A DNA stretch of 64,000 bases. It comes from Gentiana macrophylla. Its lineage: Eukaryota; Streptophyta; Magnoliopsida; Gentianales; Gentianaceae. Location: positions 58,586,246-58,650,245 of the forward strand of contig CM047817.1 of NCBI GenBank assembly GCA_026214975.1, given 5' to 3'. Both the position numbers and the translations under genes were made by a program. This document shows positions 3,774 through 64,000 of the stretch, piece by piece (position 1 is the stretch's first letter; each line of letters begins with the position of its first letter). The notes below the pieces were generated by a model. It saw nothing but the letters and a program-made list of their open reading frames with translations. It did not search any database and was not told where the DNA came from.

Positions 3774-3803
3774 GAAGCCGGATTGTGCAGATTTTCTCCC
3801 ACC

Positions 3804-6160: not shown

Positions 6161-6179
6161 GTAAGATACATTTTTGATT

Positions 6180-22885: not shown

Positions 22886-22898
22886 CTAGTGGTTTCCC
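22856..22898 (-). promoter_or_regulatory. Predicted -1 ribosomal frameshift signal, element B gag-pol
   Basis: On the minus strand the gag frame reads ...CAG GGA AAC CAC TAG. The heptamer G GGA AAC (22898-22892) fits X XXY YYZ exactly in the gag frame. The TAG stop is two codons on (22888-22886). A perfect 11-bp stem starts after a 6-base spacer: CCCCTCCTGCC, 8-base loop, GGCAGGAGGGG (22885-22856). Pol is open in the -1 frame from here. Element C has the same arrangement at 53464-53506. Confidence 0.8.
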
Positions 22899-32506: not shown

Positions 32507-34541
32507 GGCAGTCTTTGGGGTCTACTACAGACCGCAGAGTGCACTGTTTCGTGGCTTTGCACCTTCTACCACACCTTCTTCCGATGGACAGGCAATCGAG
32601 GCGAGATAAGCCATTTTTCATGCATTTTATTTATGCTTCTATTTATTTTTCTAGTATGCTTCAACTACTTTTGATACTCTTTCACTATTCTATTGATACA
32701 CTCACTTTGCATGCAAAGCACTTATTTTTGAGCCCCTAAGGCACAGTTGACCGTGCATGTTTTCCTTTTCTTTGATTGATACTTTGGGATGACGTGGCTT
32801 TTTTTCTATTAGTTTTTATCTGATGATTGGATGTTCTGTTTTTATTGATTCTTTTCTATCCTTCCATTGCATATCCCCGTATCCCCCCTCTTTATGCTTT
32901 GATCCCGTTACTGTGGCATGGACTCGTTATTTTATGCACCCGCTTACCCTATTTCTTTCTTTCTAGCACGTGGATTCAGTCCCGTGCATGCGCTTTCTTT
33001 ATTTCTGTTGATCTAGCTTTAGGTTTCGGGAAGGATTTATACGAGGGTGTCACGAGTTTTTGAGTTATGATTGCACCTTTCGTCGGGTTTTGGTCAAGCA
33101 ACTAAGTCTTTTACTCTTTTTTATCTCACACACCGAGGACAAGTGTTTCGTTTAAGTGTAGGGCGGGAGACTTAGTCGTTTTCTTGTTTTTGTTGTTAAA
33201 TGTGCTTAATACGTGGTATGCTTCGCCTATAACCGGGCTCGAAAGTCGATTTTTGGGTAATTTTAAAAATTTCAAGGGTTTTTAAGCTTGTGTTGTGTGT
33301 GTTGTTTTCACATTCGAGTGGTGACCACCTTCGTAGGGACCTCCCGAACGTGTACACTACGGTTTGATATTATCTTGAGAATAGAGATTATTAATTTGAT
33401 GTAAGCTACACTTTGTGCACAATTTGATTACTACAACTTCTCATACCACTAGTCTTGAGGCGAAATAGAAAGGTTTACCTAAGTAGGATACGGGATGACA
33501 TCTCTGGCGCTTCTTTGACCCGACAGAGCCAAATAAGCCTATCTCGAACATTAGACCATCTTAGCCCCTCTCAGCCTTTTTAGAATGGTCTCACCACTAT
33601 TCATTTTATAGCCGTTTTGTTACTTAGTCTGAAACCTACCTTAGCCCTTATTTTGGTCACGTTTCCTTCATTTTATACCCTACGAGTGGACCTAGTCTTT
33701 TGTTAGACCACACTTGCTAAGGCAAGTGTGGGGTGGGGGAAATGGTGTTTTTAGTCGGGTTGGTGGTTTCTCGGTTTTGAGCTATAAGGAGAGGAGGAGC
33801 CCATCTAGGCCTAGTGCTTGGATTTGGCCAAAGAAGAAAAGAAAAAATCTGTTACCACAAAAAAAAAAGAAAAAAAAATCAAATCAATCAAAGTTCAAAA
33901 CAAATTGAGAAGTTCTCAATGAATAAAAGCTTGGAGTATACAGAAATAAAGGGTTGGAATCAAAGTGATGAGCTTATAAGTGTTCATATGATGTTGGAGT
34001 TGGGATAGTTAGATAGGTGCTAATGTATTCGATCTCGCCTCATGACACTTGAAACATAGTTGAGTTTGGCAATGTGGTCGGGTATGTTAGTATCCTATAG
34101 TTCCCGAAGTGTTTAAAATAATCAAAGAGGAGTTTGGATGGTTTGTATGGTAGAGATAAGGTGGTACTCTTGTTGATTAGGTTCACTCGTACTTCTTTTT
34201 CTCCAGTTCCCAAAATATCCTTTTCGATTAACCGGAATTACCCTAGCCTAACATTATAACCTTTCAAGTCCTACCCAATCGTGTCCAAACTTAGTGACCT
34301 TGATTTGTGGAGAGGCTAGTGGGTATGAAACGGTTGGTAGTCATTTGGTCGGGATTCAAGCCCCGACAATCATTTTGAGCACTTGGCTTTAGCTTGGCAC
34401 CACACACACTCAATTTCCTTGATAATGTTGTACTAGTGTGTATATGTTGGTGTTTTTTACTTTGTGGTTACCTCGAGGGTGTGGATAGTAGCACCTACAT
34501 CACAACGTTGAATCCCTTTGGTTTGTTTTAAAATGCCTAGT
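32507..34541 (+). other. Non-coding 3' region of element A (copy 2)
   Basis: As in copy 1: no credible gene. It has AAGTGTAGGG- and AAGTGTGGGG-type purine tracts near 33151-33171 and 33724-33740 and the perfect inverted repeat at 33708-33731. Confidence 0.6.
33708..33731. repeat. Perfect 10-bp inverted repeat (copy 2)
   Basis: Same arms and TAAG loop as at 2300-2323, followed here by a longer G-rich tract (GGGTGGGGG). Confidence 0.75.
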
Positions 34542-34578
34542 TTACTCGAGGTTGAGCAAAGGCTAAGTGTAGGGTGGT
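34542..34578 (+). promoter_or_regulatory. Hairpin and polypurine tract of element A (copy 2)
   Basis: TTACTC/GAGCAA hairpin (34542-34559), then AAGTGTAGGGTGG, then LTR start TGATGGGAG. Identical layout to 3125-3161. Confidence 0.7.
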
Positions 34579-36136
34579 TGATGGGAGTCAACTTTACGTA
34601 ATTCGGTGCATTTTCCCACCCCGTTTGCCACATGTTTAGCACGTTTTGGGCGATTTAGACCCTGCTGGGTGATATCATGATTTTATGGCACGGGATTGAA
34701 TCCATTACTTTGATGGATTATTACCCCATTTTGTTGACATTAACCCTATTCCCGAGCACTTTTACCCTCCGGAATTTTTTGGATGTTTTGGTCGTTCATG
34801 ATGTTGTAGGGTATTAGTGTCTTGAAGACCCGGAAGATGATGATTCAATTGGAAAAGCTTGATCGAGGTGATAGAGGTGATCAAAAGGGGAGAAAAGTTT
34901 AAGTTTTGGAGCAAATGGATTTCAAACGCGCGTTTGAACCCCCAAACGGTCGTTTCAGAAGCTATCATCTTGATCGAGTTCAACCTCTCTAAATGCACGC
35001 GTTTCAAACTGCCCTAAATGCACGTTCCAAGTCCTCCAAATGGGCGTTTCAACCCCTAAACACGCTGCGTTCGGTTGAAGATCAGACTAGAGCCTACCCA
35101 GAAATGAAGCGAAACGCGCGTTTGCCTTATGCGAAACGCGCGTTCGAAGATGTGAAACACCAAGTTCAACTGCCCAAACATGCATTTGAAGCCGGATTGT
35201 GCAGATTTTCTCCCACCTATAAATACCCCCTTGAACCATTTCTTGATTATTATTCATTCTCTTAGCAAAACCCTACCCCTTTTTTGCTCGATTTTTTTAA
35301 TAGCTTAGAATACGTTCTCTTAGCTTAAATCAGTATAATCTTAGCTGAATCTTTCCATTTCCTAGCTCATATTTCTACTTCAAACACTAAGACACCATCT
35401 TTTAATTAGTTCTCTATTTTGTACTTTTGGATCTCAAATTCGAATTTCTTCGAATTAATGGTATATTTCTTCTATCTTTCACTTGTTATGTCTTTTATTT
35501 ACTGTTTCTTTTATGTTTTAACTAGTATAATGAGTAGCTAAACCCTTTTCATTGTCGAATCATGTGAAATTTAGTGAAATCACCCTTTGGGTGATGAAAT
35601 TGGGAGTGGGTAGTGCTTTTTATTGTTTAATCTTGCTTGTTTCACGTCTTAAAACTTATTATAACATCGCTAGATTAGATTGATCACATAATTTAGTTCT
35701 CACACACATCAACCTTACATATGTATTTTGCGGGTAGACGTGGGATAAGGGTTCTAAGATCGCGGCGTAGACTCGGCTTAGTTGTTAAGCCCGAGCCCAA
35801 TGCGAGGTTACTCGTTTTAACGTTTAAGCGGCTCTAGTGCATAACATCTCTCTTTAGGGAAGGGTAGTTAACATGGCATAAGGTGTTAGGAGAGAGTTGT
35901 TCAGACCTTAGCAACGGGATTAGGAGTACGCACCCGTGAAATTGATTGCAAGAGTTCATTTGTTATAATTCACAATCCCGGTTTTGTCTACCTTGAGGGT
36001 TGAAACTAGATACTTCGATCATGGTTCAGCTATGTCCCTTAGTATAACGTTAAAAACCGAGTAGTTAATCTTCTTTCTTTCTTTTCTATCTTTAGACTCG
36101 TTAGTAAGAATCACCTTATTGTCATTGTAGTATACA
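34579..36136 (+). repeat. 3' LTR of element A (copy 2)
   Basis: About 1,558 bp, from TGATGGGAG to TATACA (right end estimated). It contains the palindrome array (34921-35187) and TATAAAT (35218-35224). It abuts the RT start of copia x on the minus strand. Confidence 0.7.
34921..35187. promoter_or_regulatory. Palindrome array and TATA region in the element A LTR (copy 2)
   Basis: The first unit is the 18-bp perfect palindrome TTCAAACGCGCGTTTGAA (34921-34938). The next is at 34944 and the last at 35176-35187. TATAAAT is at 35218-35224. Some units differ from copy 1 by small indels. Confidence 0.7.
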
Positions 36137-36142
36137 AACACT

Positions 36143-37660
36143 TTAAAAAGATTGTTCTTGCATAGCCAAAATCCAATCTGGATCATTTAAGGCTTCTTCA
36201 ATCTCTTTGGGTTCAGACTGAGACAAAAAGCCTGCTATCATAGCATCTAGTTGGTGTCTTGTACAAACTCCAGCTTGAATATCACCTATCACTTGTCCTT
36301 CAGGGTGATTTCTCATCCATTGATGTGCTGGAGATTGCATCAACGGGTCTTCATTCTGTTTCTTCTTGAGCTAGATCATTTTCAACTAGATCAGTTTCCT
36401 CTTGTTCTTTGTTCGATTCTTTGGTTAAGTTCTTGTAAGCGAGGTTGATCTTGATCTAAAGAATTTGAGATATTTAATCTTCCAATATCAATGGCGGTTT
36501 CGAGTCTTATCGATCGAGGCTGAAAAGCTGGTTCATCATCGTCTTTAATTGTGTCTCCGATGAAACTTTGGTTCATCAAAACCACATGTATCGATTCTTC
36601 ATGCTTGAGTGTCCGCTTGTTTAGCACTATAAAAGCTTTTCTTGACACTTGAGTAGCCCAGAAATATTCCTTCATCAGCTTTGGGTTGAAAATCATTGAG
36701 CTGATCTTTGCCATTATTGTGAACAAAACATTTGCTTCGAAAGGCATGATAGTATGAGACATTTGGTTTTCTTCCATTCCATATCTCATAAGGTGTCTTT
36801 TCATGTCTCTTGTTAATGAGAGCTCGATTATAATTATAATAGGTTGTATTACGATTTACGCCCAATATCTTCTCAGCGGTTGATTCACAGATCATTGTTC
36901 CTCCAGCTTTTTTGAGTGTTCTATTCCTCCTTTCAGCTACTCCGTTTTCTCCACAATATTCAATGATTATGTTTTCGATAAATTATGTTCCTTTGTCTGA
37001 TCTAATCTTGATTACTGTAACACTTTTCTGATTTTGTAGTCTTTTGAGAAATTCGGTCAGTTGTTGCTTAGTCTCGTTTTTCTAGGTCATGAAATAACCC
37101 AAGTGTATCTAGTAAAATCATCAACTACCACGAAGTGTATTTCTTTCCACTAACACCGATTGGTGTTTCTGGTCCAAACAAGTCCATATGTACCAGTTCT
37201 AAAACTCTGTTTGTTGAATGCTGAGACATAGTCTTGAAACTTGATTTTGTTTGTTTTCCTTGTTGACATGCATCACACAGGCTGTCTTTCTTGTATATCA
37301 TCTCTGGTAGTCCAATCACCATATTCTTCTTGACTAACAGGTTGGTATCATCAAAGTTTAGGTGACTCGGTTTCTTGTGCCATAGCCAAGCGAGTTCGAC
37401 TTGGTATGCACAATCAAACAAGTTTACAAATCGTAGTAGACCAATCTACAACGTACATATTCTTCTCTTCTTCCAGCAAGAACTACTTGGAAATATGTTT
37501 TGCTCTCCTTATCAAAGGTGACTTTGTATCCCATATCGTAGAATTGACTTGTGCTGAGTAGATTGTAGTGTAGTCCTTCCACGTAAGATACATTTTTGAT
37601 TGTGAGTTCATTTATGATTAAGTATACCTAACCTTTTGTTTAAGTAGGTTTGTCTTTACT
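36143..37660 (-). pseudogene. Integrase and start of RT, copia element x (copy 2)
   Basis: Minus strand. The zinc region and integrase core (LAWLWHKKPSHLNF, LCDACQQGKQ, VHMDLFGPETPI) lie at 37125-37421. The C-terminal part (TPYEIWNGRKPN, GIFLGYSSV) lies at 36599-36895. The RT linker and start (QVIGDIQAGV, NDPDWILAMQE) end at 36143. Here DPDWILAMQ is intact, unlike copy 1. RT is cut by the element A LTR. Confidence 0.8.
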
Positions 37661-37724
37661 CCCAAAATTGAATCTTGGTCCATCTTTAGCTACAAAATCA
37701 GTGAGACAGTCCTTACTCTTTGTC

Positions 37725-37765
37725 ATGTGTCTAGAGGAACCACTGTCAAAGTACCAAATATCATG
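37725..37765 (-). pseudogene. Protease active-site region, copia element x (copy 2)
   Basis: The minus strand translates to WYFDSGSSRHMTKSK, the copia protease signature with catalytic Asp-Ser-Gly. In copy 1 (near 6310-6350) the DSG codons read differently because a CAG-containing stretch is altered, showing that the two copies are corrupted at different places. Confidence 0.8.
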
Positions 37766-37949
37766 CAAAACAATTTAAAATGCTTTAGGTACCTAAATTT
37801 GTTTGGGTCCATAGTGGTCAGTTGGAAGTACAACTCTGGGTATTTTTGCATAAGGTCTTCTCCGGAAATTGTTGCACTTGTTTTCATATATATAAGCCAT
37901 ATTTCCATAATATCTTTTCTTGGATTGTGTCTCATTTATATGATTTCTC

Positions 37950-39957
37950 ATGTCTTCTGGTTTAGATTCATTTCCAAAATGTTTTCTATTATTAAAAGTT
38001 GAATAATAACCATCATACCTTTTGTACTGACGTCTGGGCTGGAATTTGTACCGGGACTTTTGCTGAGAACCGGGATAAGCTCTCTAGTGAGTCTTGGACT
38101 GAAACTTGTGATATGTTTTCTGTCTAGAATGATTGTTCCTATCAGTTTTAATAGTAGATTAAGTAAAATTCCAATCCTCCTCGGTGGGGTAAAGTCTGCC
38201 TTTCCCTCTGGATGTGTGAATCTTTTAATGATTGACATTCTTAGATTAACCACGATTATGATTTCTGGTTCTTGTCTTGATCGGATTTTTGTAGATATGG
38301 CGGTTGATCTTTCATTTCGGTTTCTTGAGGTACAGTTGATCTACCATTTGGTTTACCTTTGTTGTTAGGTACTGAGTTGTCTTCTTTAGAAACTCGAGTT
38401 GTCTTATGTGAAGTCGACTTTATTTGTTCAACAATTTTCTCATCTGTGGAAGTTGCTCGGCAACAAACTTAATACCAGTTTTGATACTAAGTTCAGCAGC
38501 TTTGCTAGTTCCTTCCTTAGAAGATTTCTGTTTATCAAATCCTAAGCCAGTTTTGTCTCCATAAGCCTTTCCTGATTTAAATCCATTAGCGGAACTTGAT
38601 TGAGCAAAAGATTCGATTCTTTCTGGCGATGTATGTAGCAGCATATATCGATTCTTTCCTTTCTAGTCAGTTTCATCATATTTAGTTCGGACTTCAATCT
38701 TTCAACTTCAAGAATTAGAAATTATTTCTCAGCTTTAATTGATTCATAACCAGCTTGAATAGTTACTAGCTGATTCATCAATTTTTCAAGTGTTTCTTCT
38801 AATTCTAGATTTTTTGGATTGGAGTCAGCATTCGAAGAACATGCATTTTGTATGGAAATCTGAGCTGAGGACTATTTAGACAAATACTCACATACCTCAT
38901 TTGGATTCTCCATATGAGCCATTAAAGCTGTGTCATCTGATAATCTATCAGTGCCATCTTCATAATCTGACTCATCTCTGGCTAAGAGTGCTCTTCTTCC
39001 AGTTCTTCATTGACGAGTCTTCTTGGTCAGCTTTGGATATTCAGCTTCGTAGTGTCCAGGCTTCTTACAGTTGAAGCAAAGATATTAATCGTCTTTCATC
39101 TTTTCAGGAGTCCTCTTGATGAACTTCTGAGTGACTGCGTGTCCACTCTTCATTCTTCGAATTATGTTCATCATTAGAGCCATCTGTTTCTCCATCTCAT
39201 CCAATTGATGAAGATTGCTAATTGAGGTTTCTTGGTTATCATTTGTGGCTGCTACTGCAAGAGTTGTTGTTTTGGGTTCCTCCATTGCTTTAATTAGAGC
39301 TGTTGTCATGGTGAAATCTTCATTGAATTCATAAGCTTTGAGATCTGAGAAGATTTTGAAGGAATCTTCTATGTCAAGTCTTCTTGATTCTTCCATTGTT
39401 GTGATCTTCATCTTCCAGCACATTGGTAAAGCCTTCAAGATTCTATTGTTGATTTCTTTCTTGGTCTAATCAATCTTGAGTAGAGCCAATTCATCCATGA
39501 TAGTGCTAAATCTTGTTTCCATCTGATCAATATTTTTGCCTGACTTCATCTTGAAATTCTCAAACTTCTGTTTTGCGACGGAGATCTTATTCTCTTTAAT
39601 AGAATCATTTCCTTTGCAAACTAACTGAAGTTTCTCCCACATCTCTTTTGCAGTAGTGCAATCCTTGACTTTCAGGTACATGTTGCTGTCAAGAGTTTTG
39701 AGTATGATGTCCATGGCGACATTGTTCAGGTTATTTCTCTTTCGATCATCACTGGTCCATTCAGCTTTAGGCCTTGGGAAATCTAACTTGATTTTCACCT
39801 ACAGTTTGCATGTAAGTGATCCGGATAGGTCCATCAGTGAGTACATCAATCATCTCATCATGACAAGCTGCTAGAAAAGCCTACAAACGACGTTTATATT
39901 AATCAAAACTGTCCATGTTGCACATCAACATTTTCTGGCATCTTGATTGTTATCCAT
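37950..39957 (-). pseudogene. Gag of copia element x (copy 2)
   Basis: ATG at 39957. Motifs in order: MDIILKTLDSNMYLKVKDC and EMWEKLQLVCKGND (39466-39798), ALPMCWKMKITTMEES and SDLKAYEFNEDFTM (39085-39438). Then a zinc knuckle CFNCKKPGHYEAEYP near 39040-39080, in which the last Cys of CX2CX4HX4C is Tyr. A Ser/Lys-rich region with KTGLGFDKQK follows (38420-38644). Frameshifts separate the pieces. Confidence 0.75.
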
Positions 39958-40084
39958 TGTGTGAGTGAATGAGAACTGTATTATGCATTGATTGGAACAT
40001 GAAACACTGAGCTTTTTCAAGAGAACAACTAGAGAAGATATAGAGCAAATGAGGTGTTAACAATGAGTTGTTAAAGAAACACTT

Positions 40085-40546
40085 CTCTGATACCAATTGT
40101 TGGTCCCTTGATAGTCCCTGACTAATCCCTAGTGTCACTATCTAAACAACTAAAGAACAGGTTGTATGGTTGCTCTTCAACTGCTTGAACCATTGGTCCT
40201 TAGAGGGTTGTATTGCCTCTTCACCAGCTACCACCACAAACACAGTCTACCCGACTGTAAATGTCACAACTGTCTTTGGCAACTCCTTGACCGGATTGCT
40301 TCACAGTCTAAGCCTTTGATTATGAATCAAAGTTGGGCAGATAATCAATAAATTGATTCTTTCTTGTGGTTCTTCAAAGTGTAGAAATCGGATAAGATCG
40401 ATGTAGCTTGAACACTTGAAGTGTACTAGATAAGATCTTGTTGAGCACAAATAACAAATTGAATGAACTAGAATTTTGCACAAAATGCTTGTAATCTTGT
40501 TAATTCTTGGTGTTTATCCTTCGTTCAAAGTCATCTATTTATAGTG
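40085..40546 (-). repeat. Primer site and LTR fragment of copia element x (copy 2)
   Basis: Primer site ATTGGTATCAGAG (40097-40085, minus strand), then LTR from 40098. The LTR is cut at 40546 by element y; its last five bases TAGTG (40542-40546) are the left target duplication of y. The LTR resumes at 49508. Confidence 0.8.
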
Positions 40547-42301
40547 TGTTGGTCCCTTGAAAAGGCTAACACAAGTTTAGGGGGGGTGAATAAACTAGTC
40601 ACCAAAAACCTAACTTAAAAGTAAATCTTAAACTAGTTTTAGTTCAAATTAAACTTGTGCGGAGTTAAGCTAACTTAGCTGAGTATAAGTCAAGCGACTT
40701 ATCCTTAATCGAGTTAATCGGCATTGATTAAATTAAGCCTTTGTGAAATATGAGTTATCGATTAATGTCTTTGACTCGATTCAAAGTGTTTGTTAAGTAT
40801 GTGATCCGGATGTATATAACTACCGTGCATTAAATAAATGCGTAATGTAAATAAACAAGAATTATAGAGGTTCCAGGTAGTGTAATCATGTCAGTCCTCT
40901 CTTCTCCTGTGATGTGGAGGCCAAATCCATTATGTTCTTGAGGTTTACAGTTACAAGACACAAAGTAAAATCTAGACACTTGATTGTCCTTCACTAATGC
41001 ATAGCTTCACAATCTTCCAGCTTCAGTCTTCAATAGGTAGAATTGCTATTTTAACTAAGCTTGCCACACTGGTCCTTAGAGGGTTGAATTGCCTCTTCAC
41101 CAGCTCATCACAAACACAGTCTTTATCGATCGCACTCAACCTGTCTTTCACACCTTGTTGGTGTTTCTGATCTGAAACCTTTGATAAAATCAAAGTTGAG
41201 ACTTGAATCAATAACTATGATTCAACTTGTGATTTGAGCTTTCTTCTTCTAGATATGTAAATTATGCATCGCTCTGTTCTTATTCAAATGATGATCTTAA
41301 TGTTTCTTTGAATGCTTATGAACACTTGAATAAATTTCTTGATCTTGCAATAAAGTGCTTAGCAGGAATTCTTTTGATTAACTTTCCCTCTTAGTATGAT
41401 CTTTCTTGATTCGATCAGATCATTGAATTCCTCAATTCTTCTTGTTGTCGAAGAGATTTATTTATAGGGGTTTCTCTAACGGTTAGATCATTTGAATTTG
41501 AATCTTTATAGCCATTAGTGGTCATGTTTTCCTTTTGTGTGTCAGTGTCCTTCCTAACATTTCTGTGTATCCAAAAAGATTGTTTATGTAGTAACGGTTT
41601 GATTTATCTTGATTTGTCTCATCTTGATTGTTCTTAACTTGATAAAAAATTGGTTTAAACATGACGTAATCAGTTTCCAGTTAAAAGCATTAACTAAGTT
41701 TTTACTCTTCTTCAAAATATCAGTACTCCTTTCTTCATCTGATTATAATTGACTAAATCAGAGTACACAATACTTAATTAACCATCTAAGATATCAACGT
41801 CCTTATGATTCTTAGCCCTTTATACAAGATCCATAAAGTCGATTCAGTCATCACAATCTTGCTCAAGTCTAACTTTCTGACGCCTCGACTTAGTCTTCAT
41901 AAAGCCGAGTTTGAACCCTCAATTCTTGATCTTCAATAACCGAGTTTGATCCCTTAGTGTTCGATTTTAGATAAGTCAACCGAGTCTGTGTCCCTCAGTG
42001 AACTTACCTTCTTCAGTTTTTGTTGGTGTGCTCTTATGTCATTTTTCCAGAATCTCTCTTGATGATCTTAGTTTCCTTACGTTAATTACCCAATTTCTCA
42101 GTTTTAAACCTAGAACTATTACAGTCCTTGTCTGATTAACTTATACAAATATCAGACTCTATTAAATCCTATACATTGATTTCTAGACATCTTTTTGCAT
42201 TGCACTATAACAGCTAGTTATGACACTTCATCAATAGGGTCTAAAAACAATAACTGAATATGTGGTGATTCATCATCAAAACATAAATTTTATTTCCAAC
42301 A
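40547..42301 (-). repeat. 3' LTR of copia element y (copy 2)
   Basis: 1,755 bp, edges TGTTGGTCC and TTTCCAACA. Near the left end a GGGGGGTGAATAAAC run matches the G-rich run in the 5' LTR (near 47778). Diverged by many substitutions from the 5' LTR, so y is older than C. Confidence 0.85.
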
Positions 42302-42318
42302 ATTTCCCCCTTTTTGAT
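42302..42318 (-). promoter_or_regulatory. Polypurine tract of copia element y (copy 2)
   Basis: Minus strand AAAAAGGGGGAAAT directly before the LTR start TGTTGGAAAT. Confidence 0.8.
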
Positions 42319-42494
42319 GATGTCAATACTCTCCTTAAAAGCAATGCAAAAAGATAAAGACAAAATAAACAAAAACAAGATGAACTGAGAAACTGTTATT
42401 TAATTAAAGGGACTGAGTTACAATACAAGGTATTAAAATACAATACATGAAAAGAAACTAAGTGTCAGCTTCTTTTCTTTCACTTGAAAGATAA

Positions 42495-45400
42495 CTAAGT
42501 TTGGTTGTCATAATCATCAGCAAACTTCTTCATGGCTTCATTTGTTGCCATGCTTACAATTCCATGAAAATTTGCATAAATGTTCCAAGAGTTGGTCATA
42601 TTGTGTTTACTGAAAAATTTTCTCTTGAAAAGTACAGCAAACACAAACACGATTTCCCTAAGACTTTATCTAGGGTGCCATTCCTCTCCCATTTGCTCAA
42701 TTTATGCCAGAAATGCATGATAACCTTTTGCATATTCAGAAAAGTTGATAAGGCTTGTTCTCTTGATTCTCCTTCTTTCAAGGGTAAGTCTTTGAAAATA
42801 TTGTAAAGACGAGAATCTAGACCAAGTCTTTTCTCAGTTGGTTCAGCAAATTTTGCATTAGCTCCATTTCTTCATCTGTAAAGTCTCCTCTAGCTTTCTT
42901 CATTTCGACCAGTTTAGCATCAATGTTCTCCAGAACTTTTGGCATATCTAACGAATTGACTTTTAACATTTCCAAACTTCCCCCCTTACCGACATCATTC
43001 TTATCAATCAAACTCTTGATGTAGGAGTTGAGATGTTGCTATTTGATGCCAATATGGTTTGAGCTACAACTGAGTCTTTCATTCCATTTTCCATTAAGGC
43101 CATTCTGTCAACCAAGTTATTGAGAATGCCTTCCCATATCTCTATAGTTTCAGCTTTTCTTGAATCATACTCAATAGTTGTTTTGTGAATTTGAATCAAA
43201 TATTCTGACAGTCGCTTCTGAAATTATCCAATCTTTTCTCCATGTTTTTCCTTATAGTCTTGCTTTCTACCAAGGACTTTAACACTTTTCCAAGTGAACT
43301 GATATCATCTTTCTGAATGCGGATCATTTCATTGTGATAAAACTTGATAATATCAAATTGTGTAGGAATGTCTCTTCCAATTTTAGCTTTATGCACTTCA
43401 GTTTTATCTGCTCCAGTTTCATTCACTTCTGTTTCTTTGAGGGAAGTAGGAACAATCTTCTTGAGTTCTTCTTTGTATTCCACATATTTCCTTCTCTCCT
43501 TAGATTGTCTCCTTATTTCTTCCAGACTTGACTGATCAATCTCTCTGACTGGTGATATTTCCACATTGAAATCATCATCAGAATCTTCACAAACTTTATC
43601 AGCCTCAGCTTTTGCTATCTCGCGTACAGTTTGGTCAATTGGGGACTGATAGCCAGTGGTACTGATAACCTTCCTTTTCTTCATTTTCAGATTCTGACTG
43701 AGTTTCAGAGTCTGAACCTTCATTGGTTTCCTCAGAGTTATCTTCATCATCATCTTTCTTATCATCTCCAGTTTTCGTTTCGTGAATTGATGCGAGAATT
43801 CCTCTTTGCAAATTAGGGTCTCCCTGTGAATCATTATCATCATCGTCATTGTCATCTTTCTTAGAGCTTCCTCCAGCTGCAGTTTTATTCAAATGATTGT
43901 CTCAGATCAACACATATCCATTGCTCAAAAATTCATGAGTGTTGATCAGTTCGGACAATGAGTGATGTTAAAAAGATCAAACACCTTTTTCTCTATGATT
44001 TCCATTTCTGCTAACTGACTTCTTTGAACTGATATAGAGTTGAGTTTCCAATTTTGATAATCGTGCACTCTCTTGCAATCAGCTATTATCAATTCTTCGA
44101 TGTTAACAGATGATTCAGGTAGGGTTGTGATTACTTCACTTTTATTTGGAATCTCCAGATTAGATTCCACAGAAGCCTCAATTCTTTCAGTTTTTTGAAG
44201 ATCAGTTTTGCTGGTATCCCCTTCAGCAACAACTGGGACTAAGCTGGTTTCAATTTCAATAACAGGAACTGAGATGACTGGCTCAGTTTCCAAATACTCT
44301 TTAGCAACAACAAGATCTTCCACATGCTCAGTAACTTGTTCTTTTGTTGACTCACATTCCAGTTCAGCAAGTGCTTCCTCTTAATGTGTTGGTTCATCAA
44401 TCTTAACTTTTGCTGGTTTTACATCTTCTTCTGCAACAGATTCTCTTACTTTCTTGTCTTAAGGAACTATCCCTGTTTCACTGACAAGCTCATCCAGGGT
44501 GATGACTTGTACAGGTCTTGATTCAATTTCAGTAGGATCTTTTTCATCAGGTTGAGATGTTTCAATATCTTTGAGTGACTCCTCATACTCAACTCTAGAT
44601 GCTGATTATTACTGTGTGGATCTAGACTTGGAGAGTAGCTTGAGCATGGCCATAGTCTCTAAGACAATCAGCCTTTCCTCACTATCAGTTTCTTCATCAT
44701 CAAACTCATCTCTCAGGATCTGTCCCCCCTGAGTGTCAGCTTCTCTCTGAATTTCAGTTACTGGCAGAGAAGGAACAACTTCTTTTCTACCCGAGGTTTC
44801 TTTTTCAGTAAGAACTTTTTCAATTTGGATTGGATCGGTGGGGGTTTCTTCAATTCTCAGTTTCTTTGCTGAGCTTTCAGCAATTGAAGTGGCGGATTTT
44901 GTTGGAGAAGGCTCCAAAACCTTCTTTGCAGTTTCAGCAACCTTTGCTTGAATTGAAGCTTCCAGATTCCTCTTCCTTTCTATCAATTCATCAACTTGTT
45001 CAAGAGCGTCTGTGCCAGTTCGAGGTTTCTTTGATCTTCTACTCTTCTTTTCAGATTTTTCGATCCTTTATGATTGCATTTTTCCCGTCTACAATTGCAG
45101 TTTCCTTCTTCTTTGCAATTTTGAAGTGGTCAAGAATTCATTGAACTAAAATGGCAAGAGTCTTCTTGTGATAAAATCTGCCTTTCATCACATCTGTCTT
45201 CTTATTGGGTACATCGAAAGATTGTGCCATTAGTTGATCCAAAATGTACCTTTGCCAGTCGAAATCTTATTTGAACCAAATAACATACAGAAGTTCCAAT
45301 TTGCTACCACACAAATTGCTAAAGTTCCCTGCATTTCCAATCATGCAATTTGCCAACATTTTGGTAAGAAAATTAAATTCAGGTTTGAGTAGGCTTGTGC

Positions 45401-45909: not shown

Positions 45910-45948
45910 AGTGGTAGAAAACGTGGTTGATAGATTTGAGTGGGATTC

Positions 45949-46528
<580 letters not shown>

Positions 46529-50613: not shown

Positions 50614-51022
50614 TGTTTAGGGTATATTTTACTATATTTTCGGGCTTAATCCCTAAACAATTTACCTTATTTTTAAGGGAAATAAATGAGAAAAGCGTGT
50701 TTTAACCGTTAAATTCCTATAATGGTTATTGAGGGGTTATAATTTAATTATGAGGAAATATTGAGTTTAAATGTTATTTTTGTTACACATTTTATTATTA
50801 TTATTATTCGATGACTTGGTGTAACAACAATTTTGCAGAAAATTAAAAGATATGCATGGGGATATTATTAATGGAGAAGATTTATCTCATTCAATCAAGT
50901 GATTTCAAAATAAAGAAGAAAATCGGAGCATTAAAGAGAGGATAAATCAGATCAGATCGAAAGAGTGAAGTAGGGAACACGGTATACGAAGCAGCAGTGT
51001 GAAAACGCGTAAATAGGTAGGT

Positions 51023-51078
51023 TCGGTCGACCGAGCCATGCTATTCGGTCGACCGAGTGTCTTAAGTCGGTTGACCGA
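51023..51078. promoter_or_regulatory. Three TCGGTCGACCGA palindromes in the 5' LTR of C
   Basis: 12-mers at 51023-51034, 51045-51056 (both perfect) and 51067-51078 (TCGGTTGACCGA). Spacing is exactly 22 bp each. The TATA box follows 60 bp later. Confidence 0.8.
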
Positions 51079-51138
51079 GCCCCGAAGCTGCAAAATCGAC
51101 GCGTTTTTCTAGATCCTTCCTTATGTCGGCAAAACTCC

Positions 51139-51146
51139 TATATAAG
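51139..51146 (+). promoter_or_regulatory. TATA box of the 5' LTR of C
   Basis: TATATAAG followed by CAGCACC, a good match to the plant TATA consensus, positioned after the palindrome array. Confidence 0.75.
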
Positions 51147-52079
51147 CAGCACCATTCGAGCAGAGAAGAACACACAGAAAAAGCACCACATCACACAAAA
51201 ATATGAGTTTCTTTCTTTCAGTCTTGCTTGGGAGTTCGAAGATGATTGAAGGCTAAGCATCTTGCAGTAGGACAACGGGATGAAGCCAACACAACACCAT
51301 CACAACCAAGGGATTTTCGAGTAGCAATTGTTTAGTGAGTTTGAATTTTAATTTCTTTATCAATTGAATAGATTTGAATGTTGGTTTTATTTGATTGAGA
51401 AATCAATGAAACGTTTATCTGTTTTGAATTTTAATGAGAATTGGATTCATATATAGAACCGTTCTTTTGATACGATTAGTAATAATTCAAGGGATTGTTT
51501 ATTATTGATTGGGTAGGAGATTCGGAGACGAACTCGTGATCATGTTCTTAAATTGTTAATTTTGTTTTACTTGAGAAAGAAAACGAAAGCTAAGTAAATT
51601 TGATTAAGGAAACTAGATCGAATTTAGGTTAGATCATACCAAGAAATATAATTCAATTCATGACTTGGTTGGGTGGTGGTTGTTTGGTGGATTCGTGTCG
51701 TTCTACTGTCCTTTAAATTCATAAGAAAGTTCGTAACTTTTTGCATATTAGTTTAGATTCTTAGTTCGTTAGTTCATTCGATTTTAATTTCATTAGTTTA
51801 AGATTAGTTCAATTTGATCTACTTTTATTTTTATCATCTTTAATTGCTGTTTTGAGTTTTCTGTTTATTAGGTTAGATAATCTTAATTCGGATTACATAG
51901 TTCTTAGATTTTAGTAGTTTTAAGTAGATTCTCGTGACATCCTCACCATCCGTTAACTATATTAGTTTCTGACGCGTTCGACTCCCTTAGGACGACCCGT
52001 AAACACCCTATACTACGAACCTTATACTTGGGGTGTTTCGGTTTATAAATTTAAAACACGTTTTTACCGAACAAGTTTT

Positions 52080-52097: not shown

Positions 52098-52216
52098 GTC
52101 TGTAACGGTTGTCGGATTCTTCATAGTGTAGTTTTCTGAGTCGACAGTATTTTGGCCATAACTTTCGGCTCGAGTGTCGGATTGGCGCGCAGGACCCCAA
52201 TTCGGAAAGCTCGTTC

Positions 52217-52771
52217 AAAACGTCGTATTAATGACTCGTTGAGATTGCGAAAAGGGTGATGAGTGGGAAAGATGGACGGTTGAGATTAAAGTAGGTCATA
52301 TCTATTCTGTCATCTAGAGCTTGTATCACTAAATACGGTAGATGCAGTTTATCTCTAGCTATCCATATCTAGTTTTGTCCTTATCCAGAACTTATAGTAA
52401 ATTCAAAAACTCAGTTGTGAGTACAACTCAGTTTTAAGAATTGCAACTTCTTAGTTTTCTGCTGTTGATCTTTTCCTGCAAAACAGAATGAGAGATTTTT
52501 GGTATCCAAACCTGTTTGGGACCTTTTTGATTAGTTTTTTTGTTCTTGGAAGGCTTATTAATTTTATGCTTATACAAGCGACGGGCGTATTGGCGCGCCA
52601 ATTGCCATTTAGCTAATAAGCCTGTGGATATTGAGGTTCGCAAGCGGTACTTCCGGATCTGTATTTGAAGCGATTGTTCGAATTCCTTATGATATACAAT
52701 CAAACAGAGTTCTTGCTAATTGTAAAAAACGGGGTTTGAATGTGGCAATTTTTCAGCTGAGTATAGTCAGT
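52217..52771. other. Segment shared with element y, replacing the leader and N-terminal gag of C
   Basis: Nearly identical to 45949-46510. The break at its right end is at GTATAGTCAGTTTT, after which C continues with T-rich sequence and the C-terminal half of gag. The N-terminal gag found in B has no counterpart in C. Confidence 0.8.
52578..52745 (+). pseudogene. petA: Plastid petA (cytochrome f) fragment in element C
   Basis: Same petA piece as 46310-46481. Here it has small changes, several at CAG/CTG positions. [12 protein letters not shown] and a frameshifted haem region remain recognisable. Plastid-derived, non-functional. Confidence 0.85.
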
Positions 52772-53476
52772 TTTTTTTGTCTCTTTCCCTTTTTTTTGCA
52801 ACTCTATAATATCGTCTTCTCTATACACCGGAGCCTTCACTTCATAGAAGTAATTAGCAAGCAGCTAGCCAATTTACAGCTGCAGCAGCAACAAGGGCAG
52901 CCAGATGTGAACTACCTGGGAATACATGCGGGGAATGAGATGACTGAGGAAGTAAATTTAATGGAGAATCATAACCAAACCTTCAGAAACTTCAATCAGA
53001 ATCAGAATTATTCCGGATTTCAACGTCCCAATCTTAATCAAGCCAATGCACCACCTGGCCCGTCAAATTCCAAACCTTCCTTCAGCTCAAGTTATCAAAG
53101 ACCACCTCCCGGGGTGGTTAATCAATCTCACAATCCTAACTCTCAGAGACCCCAAGGTGGTTGGAATCAAAACCAACCTCATAACCAAACCACCTCTTGT
53201 GTCCCTCAACATAAGTTTGATGAGCTAGTAGACATGGTGAAGACCTTGGCTACTAGCGTCAGGACAATAGAGAGACAGGTTGGCCAGATGGCAGATCAAC
53301 AAGCAAACAGACCCCACGGTAAACTTCCATGTTATACCGAAAGAAATCCTAAAGCAGATATCAATGTTTGCACTGCCATCACACCTCAATGGGATTATAG
53401 GAACGAAGAGCTGAATGAGGTTACTTTAAGAAGTGGTAAGCAGGTGGGACCCGGAAAGATGTCGGGAAACGAGTAG
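52772..53476 (+). pseudogene. C-terminal gag of element C
   Basis: Open in one frame, continuing from the foreign segment. Gln-rich (LANLQLQQQQGQ), then Asn/Pro-rich (QRPPPGVVNQSHNPN), a helical segment FDELVDMVKTLATSVRTIE, then MADQQANRPHGKLPCYTERN and EVTLRSGKQ. It ends SGNE-TAG at 53474-53476. The order matches B gag (ADQQASRPSGQMPNFTERNP ... NLRSGTQ ... GNH-TAG). The capsid part is missing. The TAG is the natural gag terminator, because B ends at the equivalent codon. Confidence 0.8.
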
Positions 53477-54651
53477 CCCCTCCTGACGCCATAAGTTCAG
53501 GAGGGGGCAATCTGAAGTTAAATACCGAAGGAAGCAACAGCGAGGAGGAGCTTAATGATGATTCTTCGGGTGATGAAAATGATTCTGATAGAGAGATGAG
53601 GAGAGGTCAGGTAGCAGTACCCCTGACAAAGAAGAGGGAGGAAAAGTTTGTCAGATGGAAGGATAAGGATGACGAAGCCATTAAAAAGTCAGGTGGCTGT
53701 TCCCCTGACAATGATAAAGCCCTTCCTTATCCACCAAAGAAGAAAGAGAATACCCTCAGCCATGACAGACAATATGACGGTGTGAGGAGGATGCTTAGAG
53801 ATACCCAAGTGAGTATACCCCTAGCTGAGGTATTGACTGAAATGCCTAAATGCTCTAAGTATCTTAAGGAAGTTTGTGGAAGCAAGAAGAAGCTTCAAGG
53901 GATGGCAGAAGAAGTTTTAAGAGAAGAATGTTCCCTGGTTTCACAAAAGGTTGCTATTAAGCGAGGTGACCCCGGAAGACCTTCAATCTCCTGTGAGATT
54001 GAAGGCCACAAGTTCCAAAATGTCTTATGCTACTCAGGGGCCTCTATAAATGTGATTCCATTGAACGTCTGCAAAAAGCTTGGTTTAGACAAAAGAATGC
54101 GGGAACGCCCTATTTCTTTACAGATGGTAGACCGATCTAGCCGATCAGCAGCCGGTTGTGTTACTAATGTTCTTCACTATGTTGAACATTTGGTTTTCCC
54201 TACCGACTGGGTTATCTTAGACTACCCACCTGACAAAGAGATGCCTCTAATTCTAGGCCAGACCTTTTTAGACACCTCTGCCGCCCTCATTGATTTTTGT
54301 AAGGGTCAGATTACACTTAGAGTTGATGATACATCTGTCACCTTCACACGAGGGCAAAGTCCTGAGACACCCTTGATTGAAGAAATCTCGTTCGTTGAAG
54401 CAATTTATGAGGACAAAAAAGATGCCAACTCTGAAGGAGCGATAGAGCTAACATAGATAGGTGTTTTCGAAGCTATAAACATTGAAGATCAAGCTGACTA
54501 TGGACCATCTTCTGTTTCATTACCGGCTTTAGTCACTGAGCCTGTCAATGAACAAGAAACATGGAGATTCCCAACAATGAACGCTGATTTCAAAGAGCTG
54601 TATCAGGAAGACTTTAACCCTGTGGAAGAGGAAGCCCTTATGGGTAGTTAG
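53440..54651 (+). pseudogene. N-terminal pol with protease, element C
   Basis: The -1 frame opens after a stop at 53437-53439 and runs to TAG 54454-54456, then TAG 54649-54651, both in the same frame. Motifs: an acidic linker EEELNDDSSGDENDSD, VAVPLTKKREEKFVRWKD, VSIPLAEVLTEMPKCSKYL, then protease LCYSGASINVIPLNVCKKLGL-type sequence near 54030. The catalytic Asp of D-S/T-G is Tyr here. LILGQTFLDTSAALIDF, the conserved C-terminal protease motif, is intact. Both stops can be explained as CAG to TAG. Confidence 0.85.
53464..53506 (+). promoter_or_regulatory. Predicted -1 ribosomal frameshift signal, element C gag-pol
   Basis: The gag frame reads TCG GGA AAC GAG TAG. The heptamer G GGA AAC (53464-53470) is in the correct phase. 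The stop is at 53474-53476. A 10-bp stem (CCCCTCCTGA, 10-base loop, TCAGGAGGGG; 53477-53506) begins after a 6-base spacer. The -1 frame continues GKRVAPPDAISSGGG into protease and RT. Same design as B (22856-22898). Confidence 0.85.
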
Positions 54652-56614
54652 GACGAAGTGGATTTCTGGAGAGAGACTACTCATTGGGAGGTTGATGATT
54701 GGGAACAGCTAGCGGAGGAGCTAAAAGAAGAAGAGTTGAGAAGGATGATCAAGCATGAGAAGGAGAAAGCGGGTACTGACAGAAGGATCCCTATGGATGA
54801 TGTGATCCAGTACCTTTCTGGGGTTGTACCTCGGGAAGATGAGGTATTCTTCAGTCAACCACTTCAAGCCCATAAGGAAAAAGGTGGCCCTTTAAAACCT
54901 AGTACTGAGCAACCACCTACTGACTTGGAGCTTAAACCGCTTCCTCAACACCTTAAGTACATTTTTCTTAAGGATGGTGATAAATTGCCCTTGATCATCT
55001 CTTCGAAACTCGAGTCCGAGCAAGAAGCACTGCTGATAAAAGTGCTTGAAAGGAACATCCTCGCGTTCGGTTGGCAAGTGGGTGATATCCGAGGATTCAG
55101 CCCCGATGTGTGCATGCATAAAATCCGAACGGAGGAAGGAGCTAAGAAAGTAAGACAACCTCAGCGAAGGCTGAATCCGCATATGCAGGAGGTTGTCAAG
55201 AAAGAAGTTATAATGTGGTTAGACATGGGAATTATCTATGCAATCGCCGACTGTGAGTGGGTTAGCCCCACCCAAGTTGTGCCAAAGAAGGGAGGCATCA
55301 CCGTTGAAAAGAATGAAAAGGGGGAAGAGATAGCTTTACGCCTTCTGACTGGCTACAGAGTCTGCATCAATTATCGCAGATTGAATGAAGTCACCGCCAA
55401 AGACCATTTTCCCTTACCATTCATTGACCAGCTTATTGAAAGACTAAGTGGTCATAGGTATTATTTTTTCCTCGATGGATATTCTGGTTACTTCCAGATA
55501 GCCATAGACCCTAATGACCAGGAGAAGACTATGTTTACGTGTCCATCAGGCACTTTTGCTTTTCGCAGAATGCCTTTCGGGTTATGCAATGCACCAGCAA
55601 CATTTCAATGGTGCATGTTGGCCATTTTTTATGGACTTGTGGAGAAATGTATGGAAGTCTCCATGGATGACTTCTCAGTCTATGGCGATAGCTTTGATGA
55701 GATCTTGGAGAATCTAGATATGGTACTTCTTATTTGTGTTGAAAAGAATTTAGTGCTTAATCGGGAGAAATGCCATTTTCTAGTAGATGAAGGGATTGTT
55801 CTGGGACACAAGGTGTCCGGAAGTGGTATTCAAGTTGATAAGGCTAAGGTAGAAGCCATTGAAAAAATGTCGTACCCGAAAACTGTCAAAGAGGTACGCG
55901 GTTTTCTTGGTCATGTTGGCTTCTACAGGCGATTTATTAAGGACTTTTCCACAATAGCCAAGCCCTTATCTAACCTTCTTAAAGATGATGCTATGTTCTT
56001 GTTTGATGAGAAATGCAAAGAAGCTTTCAATTGCCTGAAGGAAAAGCTCATAAGTGCCCCTATCTTAATCGCTTTTTGTTGGACTAAGCCTTTTGAATTA
56101 TTATGTGATGCCTCTAACTACGCAGTCGGCGCAGTTTTAGGTCAAAGAATTGATAAAAAGTTCAGGCCCATTTACTATGCGAGCCGCACCTTGAACCCGG
56201 CTCAATGCAATTATACCACGAATCGAGAAGGAATTCTTAGCCGTCGTTTTGCTATTGACAAGTTTAGAAGTTACCTTCTAGGGTCTCAAGTTGTAGTTTG
56301 GACCGACCATGCAGCCCCACGCTACCTTATGGACAAAGCGGATGCAAAACCAAGGTTACTCGGGATGGATTCTAATTTTGCAAGAGTTTGACCTTGAGAT
56401 CAAAGATAAGAGGGGTAGTGATAATGTTGTGGCTGATCATCTGTCTCGCCTAGTAAATGAGGGTGGCGTAAATCACAAGGAAATAGGCATCGATTTCCCT
56501 ACTGAGCAATTGATGAAGCTTGATACAGTGAGGCCATGGTATGCTGACTCACGTCAACTACTTAGCGGTGGGCATTTAGAAGAAATGACGATCGTGAAAA
56601 GAAGAAATTTTTAA
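54652..56614 (+). pseudogene. Reverse transcriptase and RNase H of element C
   Basis: Open from 54652 to 56391. RT motifs: RQPQRRLNPHMQEVVKKE, VSPTQVVPKKGGIT, VCINYRRLNEVT, FFLDGYSGYFQIA, FRRMPFGLCNAPATF, catalytic SMDDFSVYG and FLGHVGFYRRFIKDFS. RNase H: PFELLCDASNYAVGAVLGQ with first Asp, then [27 protein letters not shown]. An extra base near 56362 (CTCGGGATGG) shifts to the frame ending 56614 ([24 protein letters not shown]). Otherwise the best preserved RT in the window. Confidence 0.9.
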
Positions 56615-58111
56615 TGACTTAAAATATCTCGTATGGGAGGATCCTTATCCATTTAAAGTCTGCAAGGATGGGTTGCTTAGAAGGTGCGTTCCGGAGCATG
56701 AACAATTGGATATCTTGGAGCAATGTCATAGTGGTCCCGCTGGTGGGCACTACGGAGCACCCAAGACAGTTGCAAAAATCCTCCAAGCTGGATTCTACTG
56801 GCCGACTCTTTTTAAGGACGCAGAAGCCTTTTGTAAAGGTTGCGATAGGTGCCAGAGAATTGGGAGGCAAAGTAATAGGATGGAAATGCCACTTAGACCC
56901 ATTCTGGAATGCGAAGTCTTCGACGTGTGGGGAATTGATTTCATGGGACCCTTTCCATCGTCGTGTGGAAATAAATACATTCTCGTCTGTGTAGACTACG
57001 TCTCCAAGTGGGTGGAGGCAATAGCCACCCAAACTAATGATCACAAAGTTGTGAAGAAATTCTTGCAAAAGAATATCTTCACCAGATTCGGCTGTCCTAG
57101 AGCCCTCATTAGTGACGAAGGTACTCATTTTTGCAACGCGCCGCTTGATAAAGTTCTCGAGAAGTATGGTGTTAGACACAAAATCGGTACACCATATCAT
57201 CCCCAAACAAGTGGACAAGTCGAGATAAGCAACCAAAGCCTTAAAAGAATTTTAGAAAAGACCGTGAACTCAAATAGATCCAACTGGAGTCTAAAGTTGG
57301 ATGACGCACTTTGGGCCTATCGCACCGCGTTTAAGACCCCAATGGGCACGTCACCCTTCCAAATGGTCTATGGCAAAGCTTGCCATTTACCAGTCGAGAT
57401 TGAGCACAGAGCCTACTGGGCTATTAAATTCGTAAATTTTGATAGCCAACTCTGTGGGGAAAAGAGGTTATTACAATTAAATGAGCTCGATGAATTTAGA
57501 CTCAGAGCATATGAGAATGCAAGAATCATTAAGGAGAGAACTAAGATACTCCACGATGCCAAGATCAAGGATCGAGAATTCAAAGTGGGTGACATGGCTT
57601 TACTTTATAACACCAGGCTCCATCTTTTTGCTGGTAAGCTTAAACCTAGATGGTCTGGCCCCTTTGAGATTCTTGATGTTCATCCCGGTGGAGCCATTAC
57701 GTTGAAAGGGTACGGCGATCAACCGTTCAAAGTCAACGGTCACAGGATTAAGAAGTACTTTGGGCAACCCAAGGAAAAGCCTGAAGTACTATACTTTCAA
57801 AAGAGAAATGAAACGGTTGAGTCGTTTATTTTAGAAGAGATTCCATCCGACTTCTTTGGAGTGATGATGACAGTCTTACCCCTAACCTTGCAAATCCTTC
57901 TGTCAGTGCTCCTGAGCCTGTTAGCATACCTCAGCCGAATCTGAGAAACAAGAACAAGAAGAAAAGAGTCAGTGTCGTCTGGAGAGAAAAATTTCATGAT
58001 CTTATCGCGCACTTGACTTGTTGTTGTGGCGAAAACCATTTCCGTTCTAGTCATTATGAGTCTGACAGAGAAGTGGTTAGCCTTAAACCCAAGTGGCCTG
58101 ATCCAGGTTGA
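56601..58111 (+). pseudogene. Integrase of element C
   Basis: After a slip in a T5 run near 56608 the frame is open to 57944. The HHCC motif is intact ([15 protein letters not shown]). The DDE triad is intact: [21 protein letters not shown] and SGQVEISNQ. Then [52 protein letters not shown] and the C-terminal RWSGPFEIL and [15 protein letters not shown]. Near 57860 one indel shifts the tail; the natural frame ends with a Cys/His stretch (LTCCCGENH) and stops at 58109-58111. Confidence 0.9.
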
Positions 58112-59502: not shown

Positions 59503-60961
59503 TGTTTAGGTATATTTTACTATATTTTCGGCTTAATCCCTAAACAATTTACCTTATTTTTAAGGGAAATAAATGAGAAAAGCGTGTTTTAACCGTTAAA
59601 TTCCTATAATGGTTATTGAGGGGTTATAATTTAATTATGAGGAAATATTGAGTTTATATGTTATTTTTGTTACACATTTTATTATTATTATTATTCGATG
59701 ACTTGGTGTAACAACAATTTTGCAGAAAATTAAAAGATATGCATGGGGATATTATTAATGGAGAAGATTTATCTCATTCAATCAAGTGATTTCAAAGTAA
59801 AGAAGAAAATCGGAGCATTAAAGAAAGGATAAATCAGATCAGATCGAAAGAGTGAAGTAGGGAACACGATATACGAAGTAGCAGTGTGAAAACGCGTAAA
59901 TAGGTAGGCTCGGTCGACCGAGCCATGCTATTCGGTCGACCGAGTGTCTTAAGTCGGTTGACCGAGCCCCGAAGCTGCAAAATCGACGCGTTTTTCTAGA
60001 TCCTTCCTTATGTCGGCAAAACTCCTATATAAGCAGCACCATTCGAGCAGAGAAGAACACACAGAAAAAGCACCACATCACACAAAAATATGAGTTTCTT
60101 TCTTTCAGTCTTGCTTGGGAGTTCGAAGATGATTGAAGGCTAAGCATCTTGCAGTAGGACAACGGGATGAAGCCAACACAACACCATCACAACCAAGGGA
60201 TTTTCGAGTAGCAATTGTTTAGTGAGTTTGAATTTTAATTTCTTTATCAATTGAATAGATTTGAATGTTTGTTTTATTAGATTGAGAAATCAATGAAACG
60301 TTTATCTGTTTTGAATTTTAATGAGAATTGGATTCATATATAGAACCGTTCTTTTGATACGATTAGTAATAATTCAAGAGATTGTTTATTATTGATTGGG
60401 TAGGAGATTCGGAGACGAACTCGTGATCATGTTCTTAAATTGTTAATTTTGTTTTACTTGAGAAAGAAAACGAAAGCTATGTAAATTTGATTAAGGAAAC
60501 TAGATCGAATTTAGGTTAGATCATACCAAGAAATATAATTCAATTCATGACTTGGTTGGGTGGTGGTTGTTTGGTGGATTCGTGTCGTTCTCTATCGCCC
60601 TTTAAATTCATAAGAAAGTTCGTAATTTTTGCATATTAGTTTAGATTCTTAGTTCGTTAGTTCATTCGATTTTAATTTCATTAGTTTAAGATTAGTTCAA
60701 TTTGATCTACTTTTATTTTTATCATCTTTAATTGCTGTTTTGAGTGTTCTGTTTATTAGGTTAGATAATCTTAATTCGGATTACATAGTTCTTAGATTTT
60801 TGTAGTTTTAAGTAGATTCTCGTGACATCCTCACCATCCGTTAACTATATTAGTTTCTGACGCGTTCGACTCCTTTAGGACGACCCGTAAACACCCTATA
60901 CTACGAACCTTATACTTGGGGTGTTTCGGTTTATAAATTTAAAACACGTTTTTACCGAACT
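59503..60961 (+). repeat. 3' LTR of element C
   Basis: 1,459 bp. Palindromes at 59910-59921, 59932-59943 and 59954-59965 (22-bp spacing) and TATATAAG at 60026-60033. The last base is T where the 5' LTR has A (ACCGAACT), so the terminal CA is lost. ATCAG follows. Confidence 0.9.
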
Positions 60962-62908: not shown

Positions 62909-63600
62909 TAAAGCCAATCATCCATATGCCTAAGTCCTTGCATGTGAACATGTTTCTCATGTTTCGCTAGTGACAATGCCCTGGTTAACAGATCAGATAT
63001 GCTATCATCCATGTGGACTTTCTCTATATTTACATCTCTTCTATCTACTATCTCTCTAATCAAGTGATAGCACCGTAGCACATGTTTGGACTTCTAATGA
63101 GACCTTGGTTCCTTTGACTAAGATATCACCCAATTGTTATCATAGTACAGTGGCACTGGACCGTCAATGAAGAGAACCACACCAAGTTCAGTAATGAACT
63201 TCTTCATTCAAACTGCTTCCTTTGCCTCCTCCGAGCCTGCTATGTATTCGGCTTCCATTGTAGAGTCTGCAGAAGTCTGTTGCTTTGAACTCTTCCAGTT
63301 CACTGCTCCACCGTTAAGCATGAAAACAAATCCAGACTGTGACTTAAAGTCATACTTGTCAGTTTGGAAACTGGCATCTGTATAACCTCGTAATACTAAA
63401 TTATCGCTCCCGAAAACCTGGAACTTATCCCTAGTACGTCTTATGTACTTGAGAACATTCTTGACAGCAACCCAGTGACCATTACATGGGTTAGACTGGT
63501 ACCTACTAGTCATAATTAGAGGGTATGAGACATCTGGTCTAGTGCACAACATGGCATACATGATGGACCCAATAGCCGAAGCATAAGGGATCCTACTCAT
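62909..63600 (-). pseudogene. RNase H of the right-hand copia element
   Basis: Minus strand: RIPYASAIGSIMYAMLCTRPD, GYTDASFQTD, SQSGFVFMLNGGAVNWKSSK, DSTMEAEYIAGSEEAKEAV. This is the copia RNase H with its catalytic acidic residues. A TGA follows EAV where Trp is expected (TGG to TGA). Continuing in frame, the C-terminal KVHMDD and HMQGLRHMDDWL end near 62920. Tork/TAR-like by overall motif pattern. Confidence 0.8.
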
Positions 63601-64000
63601 TTCCGTGCTTTCCTCCTCTGTCTAAGGACTCATTCCCTTCGACAGATAGACCCTATGTGACATGGGTAGAAATCCTCTCTTGGACTGCTCCATGCAGAAT
63701 CTCTTCAGCATCTTGTCTATGTAGGTGGATTGCGACAGAATGAGCAACCTCTTAGATCTATCTCTATAGATCTTGATTCCTAGAATATAGGCTAACTCAC
63801 CCAAATACTTTATTGAAAAGTTCTTCGATAACCAATCTTTGACTGACTGTAACTTAGGCACATCATTCTCTATGAGCACTAAGAATACAATGGTAACCCC
63901 ACTAACTTTCTAGTAAACACATGGCTCATCTTCATTCTTGATGAAATCAAACTGTTTGATTATGTCATCGAAGCAAAGATTCCAACTGTGAAAAACTTGC
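63601..64000 (-). pseudogene. Reverse transcriptase C-terminal part of the right-hand copia, YVDD lost
   Basis: Reads VSGVTIVFLVL directly joined to IENDVPKLQSVKDWLSKNF, then YLGELAYILGIKIYRDRSKRL, LSQSTYIDKMLKRF. In relatives the catalytic YVDD plus three residues lie between VL and IGND; here those seven codons are missing in frame at 63873/63874. A TAG upstream (near 63912) and another after GMSP (63622) are both explained by CAG to TAG. It continues beyond the window. Confidence 0.75.

Follow-up and report, generated by a model that had tools for sequence, protein, structure and literature searches.

How could an LTR retrotransposon whose pol genes lie one base back from the frame of gag provide both Gag and Gag-Pol? 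The question is raised by element C, which stands with elements A and B in a stretch of 64,000 nucleotides of Gentiana macrophylla DNA (contig CM047817.1; the window) and carries the heptamer G GGA AAC close to the end of gag. A 2003 survey (Gao et al.) reportedly states in its abstract that no plant element had pol in −1. In published extracts, this survey is recounted as finding pol in −1 in 28 of 51 animal elements and just two plant element types with separate frames, both +1 (PMC5009743), a 2019 plant survey gives one ORF for most groups and two for some (PMC6317226), and a 2025 review speaks of frameshifting as a strategy in ‘plants, animals, and yeast’, the plant case going unnamed in the extract (PMC12786077). 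Two-frame Athila elements may be listed in the supplements of the 2019 survey. Among the matches listed in a search of open-licence papers by title and opening of the abstract, we found none reporting a −1 frameshift for Athila or any other LTR element of plants; given this literature (animal −1, plant +1 or a single frame), what would be new is a plant lineage using the retroviral −1 strategy.

At the junction of element C, the gag codons read TCG GGA AAC GAG TAG, the final residues of the frame being TLRSGKQVGPGKMSGNE. The preliminary description had put GGGAAAC in gag phase, followed by GAG TAG (the 6-nt spacer, 53471–53476) and a stem of 10 pairs, and had the −1 frame closed just upstream; all of this was confirmed, the heptamer to the base and the closing stop as TAA (Table 1). 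The module can be written as GGGAAACNNNTAG plus the stem, located after an LRSG motif. The 50 nt 3′ of the heptamer fold at −21.6 kcal/mol, a stability that none of 200 shuffled sequences reached (z −3.2), and the 117 nt from the heptamer onward fold less exceptionally (3/200 shuffles, z −2.8). GGGAAAC by itself is not rare in the window (five seen, 7.4 expected); what exceeds chance is the combination of heptamer, stop and stem, together with its recurrence.

Table 1. Coordinates of the features of elements C and A within the window.
Element	Feature	Position	Strand	Remark
C	5′ LTR	50614..52072	+	98.6% identical to 3′ LTR
C	Remaining 3′ part of gag	52844..53476	+	5′ part missing
C	Pol-frame stop TAA closing the −1 frame upstream	53437..53439	+	
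C	Pol-frame (−1) open stretch with protease region	53440..54456	+	Pfam PF13975 match
C	Slippery heptamer G GGA AAC	53464..53470	+	In gag phase
C	Gag stop TAG	53474..53476	+	Second codon after heptamer
C	Stem, 5′ arm	53477..53486	+	
C	Second gag-frame stop TAA, in stem loop	53492..53494	+	TAA/TGA in 36/38 distinct gapless copies
C	Stem, 3′ arm	53497..53506	+	
C	Open stretch with RT and RNase H	54652..56391	+	Same phase as protease
C	Open stretch with integrase	56598..57944	+	
C	3′ LTR	59503..60960	+	
A	Slippery heptamer	22892..22898	−	
A	Gag stop TAG	22886..22888	−	
A	11-bp stem with 8-nt loop	22856..22885	−	

We consider it highly probable, reading from genomic sequence of one species, that this junction serves an Athila-like clade as a programmed −1 ribosomal frameshift site of the retroviral type. 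Most ribosomes would read GGA AAC and terminate at TAG, releasing Gag; a minority, stalled by the stem, would slip one base back on G GGA AAC and, translating the −1 frame from there, make Gag-Pol, whose junction would read ...G-N-R-V-A-P-P in the family of C and ...G-N-P-L-A-P-P in that of A. The slippage, its rate and the part of the stem as stimulator we infer from this anatomy. An extract of PMC5009743 names G_GGA_AAC as one of the heptamers on which mammalian ribosomes shift most readily.

Copy C itself is defective. Its LTRs are adjoined by the target duplication ATCAG, and its pol runs in the order protease, RT-RNase H, integrase; the Pfam matches to RT, RNase H and integrase lie above the cut-off, and that to the protease domain (E 1.1e-4) lies below the curated one. 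Similarity of gag to its relatives begins only at 52844. When the N-terminal part of gag was used as a query, it matched in 23 of the 30 loci searched and found no match in element C. The preliminary description had the −1 frame running through protease and RT; it does take in the protease region, but ends at the close of that stretch, so that stops separate protease from an RT lying in a separate stretch of the same phase. With 5′ gag lost and these stops in place, the idea that C makes Gag and Gag-Pol by programmed frameshifting is not borne out for this copy and stands at the level of the family, where phase, stop and stem recur and the coding frame switches. A 560-bp stretch occurs twice in the window (52214–52774 and 45946–46510, 96.8% identical), and in element C it occupies the place of the missing 5′ gag.

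The order of the pol domains is that of the Athila lineage (Ty3/gypsy), which element C also resembles as a large LTR element. After its 5′ LTR lies TGGCGCCGTTGCCGGGGA, a putative match to tRNA-Asp, the primer binding site type of the Athila lineage. An LRSG-like motif at the end of gag is common to that lineage and to families A and C. We presume, having searched collections without plant reference sequences, that the name Athila applies to elements A and C, and it seems likely that their families are Athila elements. Members of the lineage include Athila4, Diaspora, Bagy-2 and Cyclops-2 (PMC6317226, in extract). In those same collections without plant references, the gag piece drew 44 candidates from the protein database, none at E ≤ 0.001, and the RT of element A had no relatives in genome_contigs or viral_contigs, three plasmid records carrying RTs of under 60% identity. 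A 19-base form of the pattern matched five viral contigs, but inspection by eye showed no gag-like frame around the match in any of them.

The same arrangement is found in element A on the opposite strand, where the junction codons are CAG GGA AAC CAC TAG and the stem again starts 6 nt after the heptamer. Elements A and C are well diverged around it, with 42% amino-acid identity over 81 residues of the gag tail and 36–39% over the protease region, against 84% over RT; the 43-nt module is identical at 31 of 43 positions, compared with 21/44 before it and 16/60 (ungapped) after it. Twenty-eight pattern-selected copies, read and sorted by the codon following the heptamer, fall into at least three families (GAG, CAC and GAA), a single copy with a TAG codon resembling the GAG family. 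The GAA family is seen in three damaged copies in which heptamer and stop are present and stems are less regular; on the pol side, L030 from this trio shares 42% identity with C across 215 residues and 44% with A across 117. The pol-frame codon spanning the gag stop is GTA, CTA or ATA in the three families: the encoded residue differs, whereas its last base, the A needed for TAG, is conserved. Direct repeats at 15367–16978 and 25291–27025, about 95–97% identical, flank element A and are probably its LTRs; the element seems to lie just upstream of, or within, element B.

Copies not chosen by the heptamer were obtained with a protease-region search, in which the best 150 of 27272 candidates were scored and 90 were read (the top 30, C included, and 60 of the other 120). 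By alignment, exact GGGAAAC is present in only 54 of these 90, which counts against a −1 site, and in 52 of 85 in a second alignment with five copies left out; many copies without the exact heptamer show damage in CAG/CTG context. The distance from LRSG to the stem, measurable in 82 of the 90, equals that of C in 52 and is three bases shorter in 10, so that 62 of 82 keep the −1 relation, while in 13 the length puts gag and pol in one phase and in seven in the other; the 10/13/7 split of the 30 copies with indels is about what random decay would give. Among the 20 protease-selected copies of family A, 14 have the exact heptamer.

Where the alignment is gapless over 53438–53506 (43 copies, 38 distinct), GGGAAAC is exact in 37 of the 38. 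Mean column diversity in this set is 0.004 for the heptamer against 0.092 for the 26 nt upstream, with 0.044 in the spacer, 0.016 and 0.024 in the two arms and 0.071 in the loop. Over all 90 copies, conservation of the heptamer is much weaker (diversity 0.088, rank 116 of 400 seven-base windows), owing to a G at 53469 in 23 copies and the absence of the first G from about 20. CAG or CAA replaces TAG in six of the 38, and both of the copies that have no loop stop retain TAG. The CAG/CAA copies belong to a C-type subfamily (L038, L039, L043, L046, L047, L052, L064 and L098), in which gag would end at the TAA in the stem loop. Under a strict motif test, a phased heptamer follows LRSG in 48 of the 90 copies; gag closes within eight codons in 47 of these, a pol-frame stop lies no more than 16 codons upstream in all 48 (at nine codons in 43), and the pol frame stays open for at least 280 codons from the heptamer in 25. 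In family A, the gag stop is the second codon after the heptamer in eight of eight copies.

Protein-level constraint changes frame at the same place. We compared diversity at third positions with that at codon positions 1 and 2 in protease-selected copies, and for family C the ratio was 2.77 in gag phase over 52850–53463 and 3.06 in −1 phase over 53507–54330, against 0.42–0.65 in the remaining phases; sliding windows put the switch between about 53440 and 53500. Family A gave 2.2 (gag phase) and 2.33 (−1 phase) from 20 protease-selected and nine pattern-selected copies. This pattern indicates that, in the ancestry of these copies, selection acted at the protein level on both frames and that one frame gives way to the other at the module.

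The phase switch bears on whether pol might be joined or started in another way, by splicing across the junction or by translation that starts internally or re-initiates beyond the gag stop. There is precedent in the extracts: the means by which Gag is made in excess of Pol has been worked out for few plant LTR elements, and splicing has been shown to set the Gag:Pol ratio in BARE and EVADE (PMC3735527, PMC12786077) and to join two frames in Ogre (PMC6317226), and a set of plant sireviruses, members of another superfamily (Ty1/copia), share a gag-end stem-loop with covariant nucleotides yet have pol in +1 or in a separate, non-overlapping frame (PMC5009743). Neither kind of route, however, needs a phased textbook heptamer, and since the coding-phase signal comes near the module on both sides there is little room for an intron; we regard such a route as very unlikely.

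The stem lends supporting evidence only to a frameshift site. Its alignment holds 37 junction sequences (35 of 56 distinct ones and the two window copies), and the 21 left aside by eye, for indels or damage in the stem or as coming from weaker copies, make the set lean towards structure. Standard pairs fill 88.5% of pair cells in the 37 sequences, against 41.8–66.8% when the structure is slid by one to three columns, and two inner pairs covary, from A-U to C-G between families and from G-C to A-U in one copy. Covariation is modest, though, and slightly higher with the stem slid by −1 column (0.091 vs 0.084); moreover, the stem overlaps P-P and G-G-G codons, so part of its conservation may be at the protein level.

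Element B represents a more distant lineage with the ordinary layout. Its fragments lie at 27032–27867 and 28833–29549 on the plus strand, with relatives at L145–L153, and its RT is 56–60% identical to that of C. A search with this RT, in which the best 150 of 38732 candidates were scored, gave many with long open frames, and 12 junction pieces were fetched, chosen partly for such frames. In nine of the 12, a single frame stays open from LTRSGK through the rest of the piece and, on the coordinates used, shares the phase of RT, and in those nine GGGAAAC is absent at the junction; of the others, one is broken past the motif, one is frameshifted after it and one is without a gag-like frame. The one-frame layout thus sits beside the −1 layout within the same assembly. 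Lineage B agrees with the remark in the preliminary description that Athila-type elements are usually described with a common frame for gag and pol, and so does Diaspora, with its single gag-pol frame of 1892 codons (PMC1142308, in extract), from which families A and C differ in having pol in −1.

Genome-wide, the pattern GGGAAACNNNTAGCCCC (heptamer, N3, TAG, CCCC) has 2395 exact sites (1238 + 1157) in 1.79 Gb, and the reversed control pattern has one (0 + 1). These counts weigh on the very unlikely reading that a base is systematically missing from the assembly at the junction and that the true elements have one gag-pol frame. A missing base would by itself also yield the coding-phase switch, and in the copies with a broken heptamer the central base of CAG/CTG is indeed altered repeatedly (172/785 cells, against 130/1264 in intact copies), other A/T positions being alike in the two classes (1120/15750 and 1930/25003). 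Such recurrent changes resemble basecalling trouble at methylated CHG sites; they may be assembly error there, and part of the broken-heptamer class may therefore be non-biological. Yet forms one base longer than the heptamer number at most 41 against the 2395 (37 of the 41 are GGGGAAAC, and these are also counted within the 2395), three families with different flanks agree, lineage B retains one frame in the same assembly, and the artefact leaves stem, slippery heptamer and kept gag stop unexplained. The CAG/CTG changes, with nearby deletions, were seen at L034–L123 in the region matching 53380–54330, on different contigs and in different subfamilies.

That a one-base indel arose by chance in a decayed copy, with heptamer and hairpin nearby by luck, would suit the defects of copy C and the ordinary frequency of GGGAAAC in the window, but is ruled out for practical purposes by the recurrence of phase, stop and stem in element A, at the 2395 genomic sites and in protease-selected copies, in families about 36–42% identical, and by the switch of coding phase at the module in families C and A.

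A programmed −1 site invites comparison with the retroviral G GGA AAC sites, such as those of SRV-1/MPMV gag-pro and visna-maedi gag-pol. They share the heptamer and its phase, a short spacer, downstream structure, a nearby gag stop and pol in −1, and differ in that the host here is a plant and a plain stem was examined; the likeness described is one of layout. Animal Ty3/gypsy elements, again with different hosts, likewise have pol in −1 and in many cases a classical heptamer (PMC5009743, in extract).

We think it likely that an Athila-like clade, starting from a one-frame ancestor like lineage B, evolved the full −1 module in an origin separate from that of animal retroviruses and retained it while diverging into three or more families and multiplying to thousands of copies; this would be the first description of −1 frameshifting in an LTR retrotransposon of plants. 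As both layouts occur in one genome, a tree could show where a single frame gave way to −1 and put that change to the test, and the short module, which varies naturally between families, suits reporter work on plant ribosomes. If the elements are Athila, as seems likely, a retrovirus-like expression strategy would be added to a lineage that has been called endogenous plant retroviruses.

Elsewhere in the window, two 13-kb blocks (1–13059 and 31415–44498) form a direct repeat with 95.5% identity, and an open frame at 63208–63621 on the minus strand resembles, by eye, a fragment of a Ty1/copia RT-RNase H.
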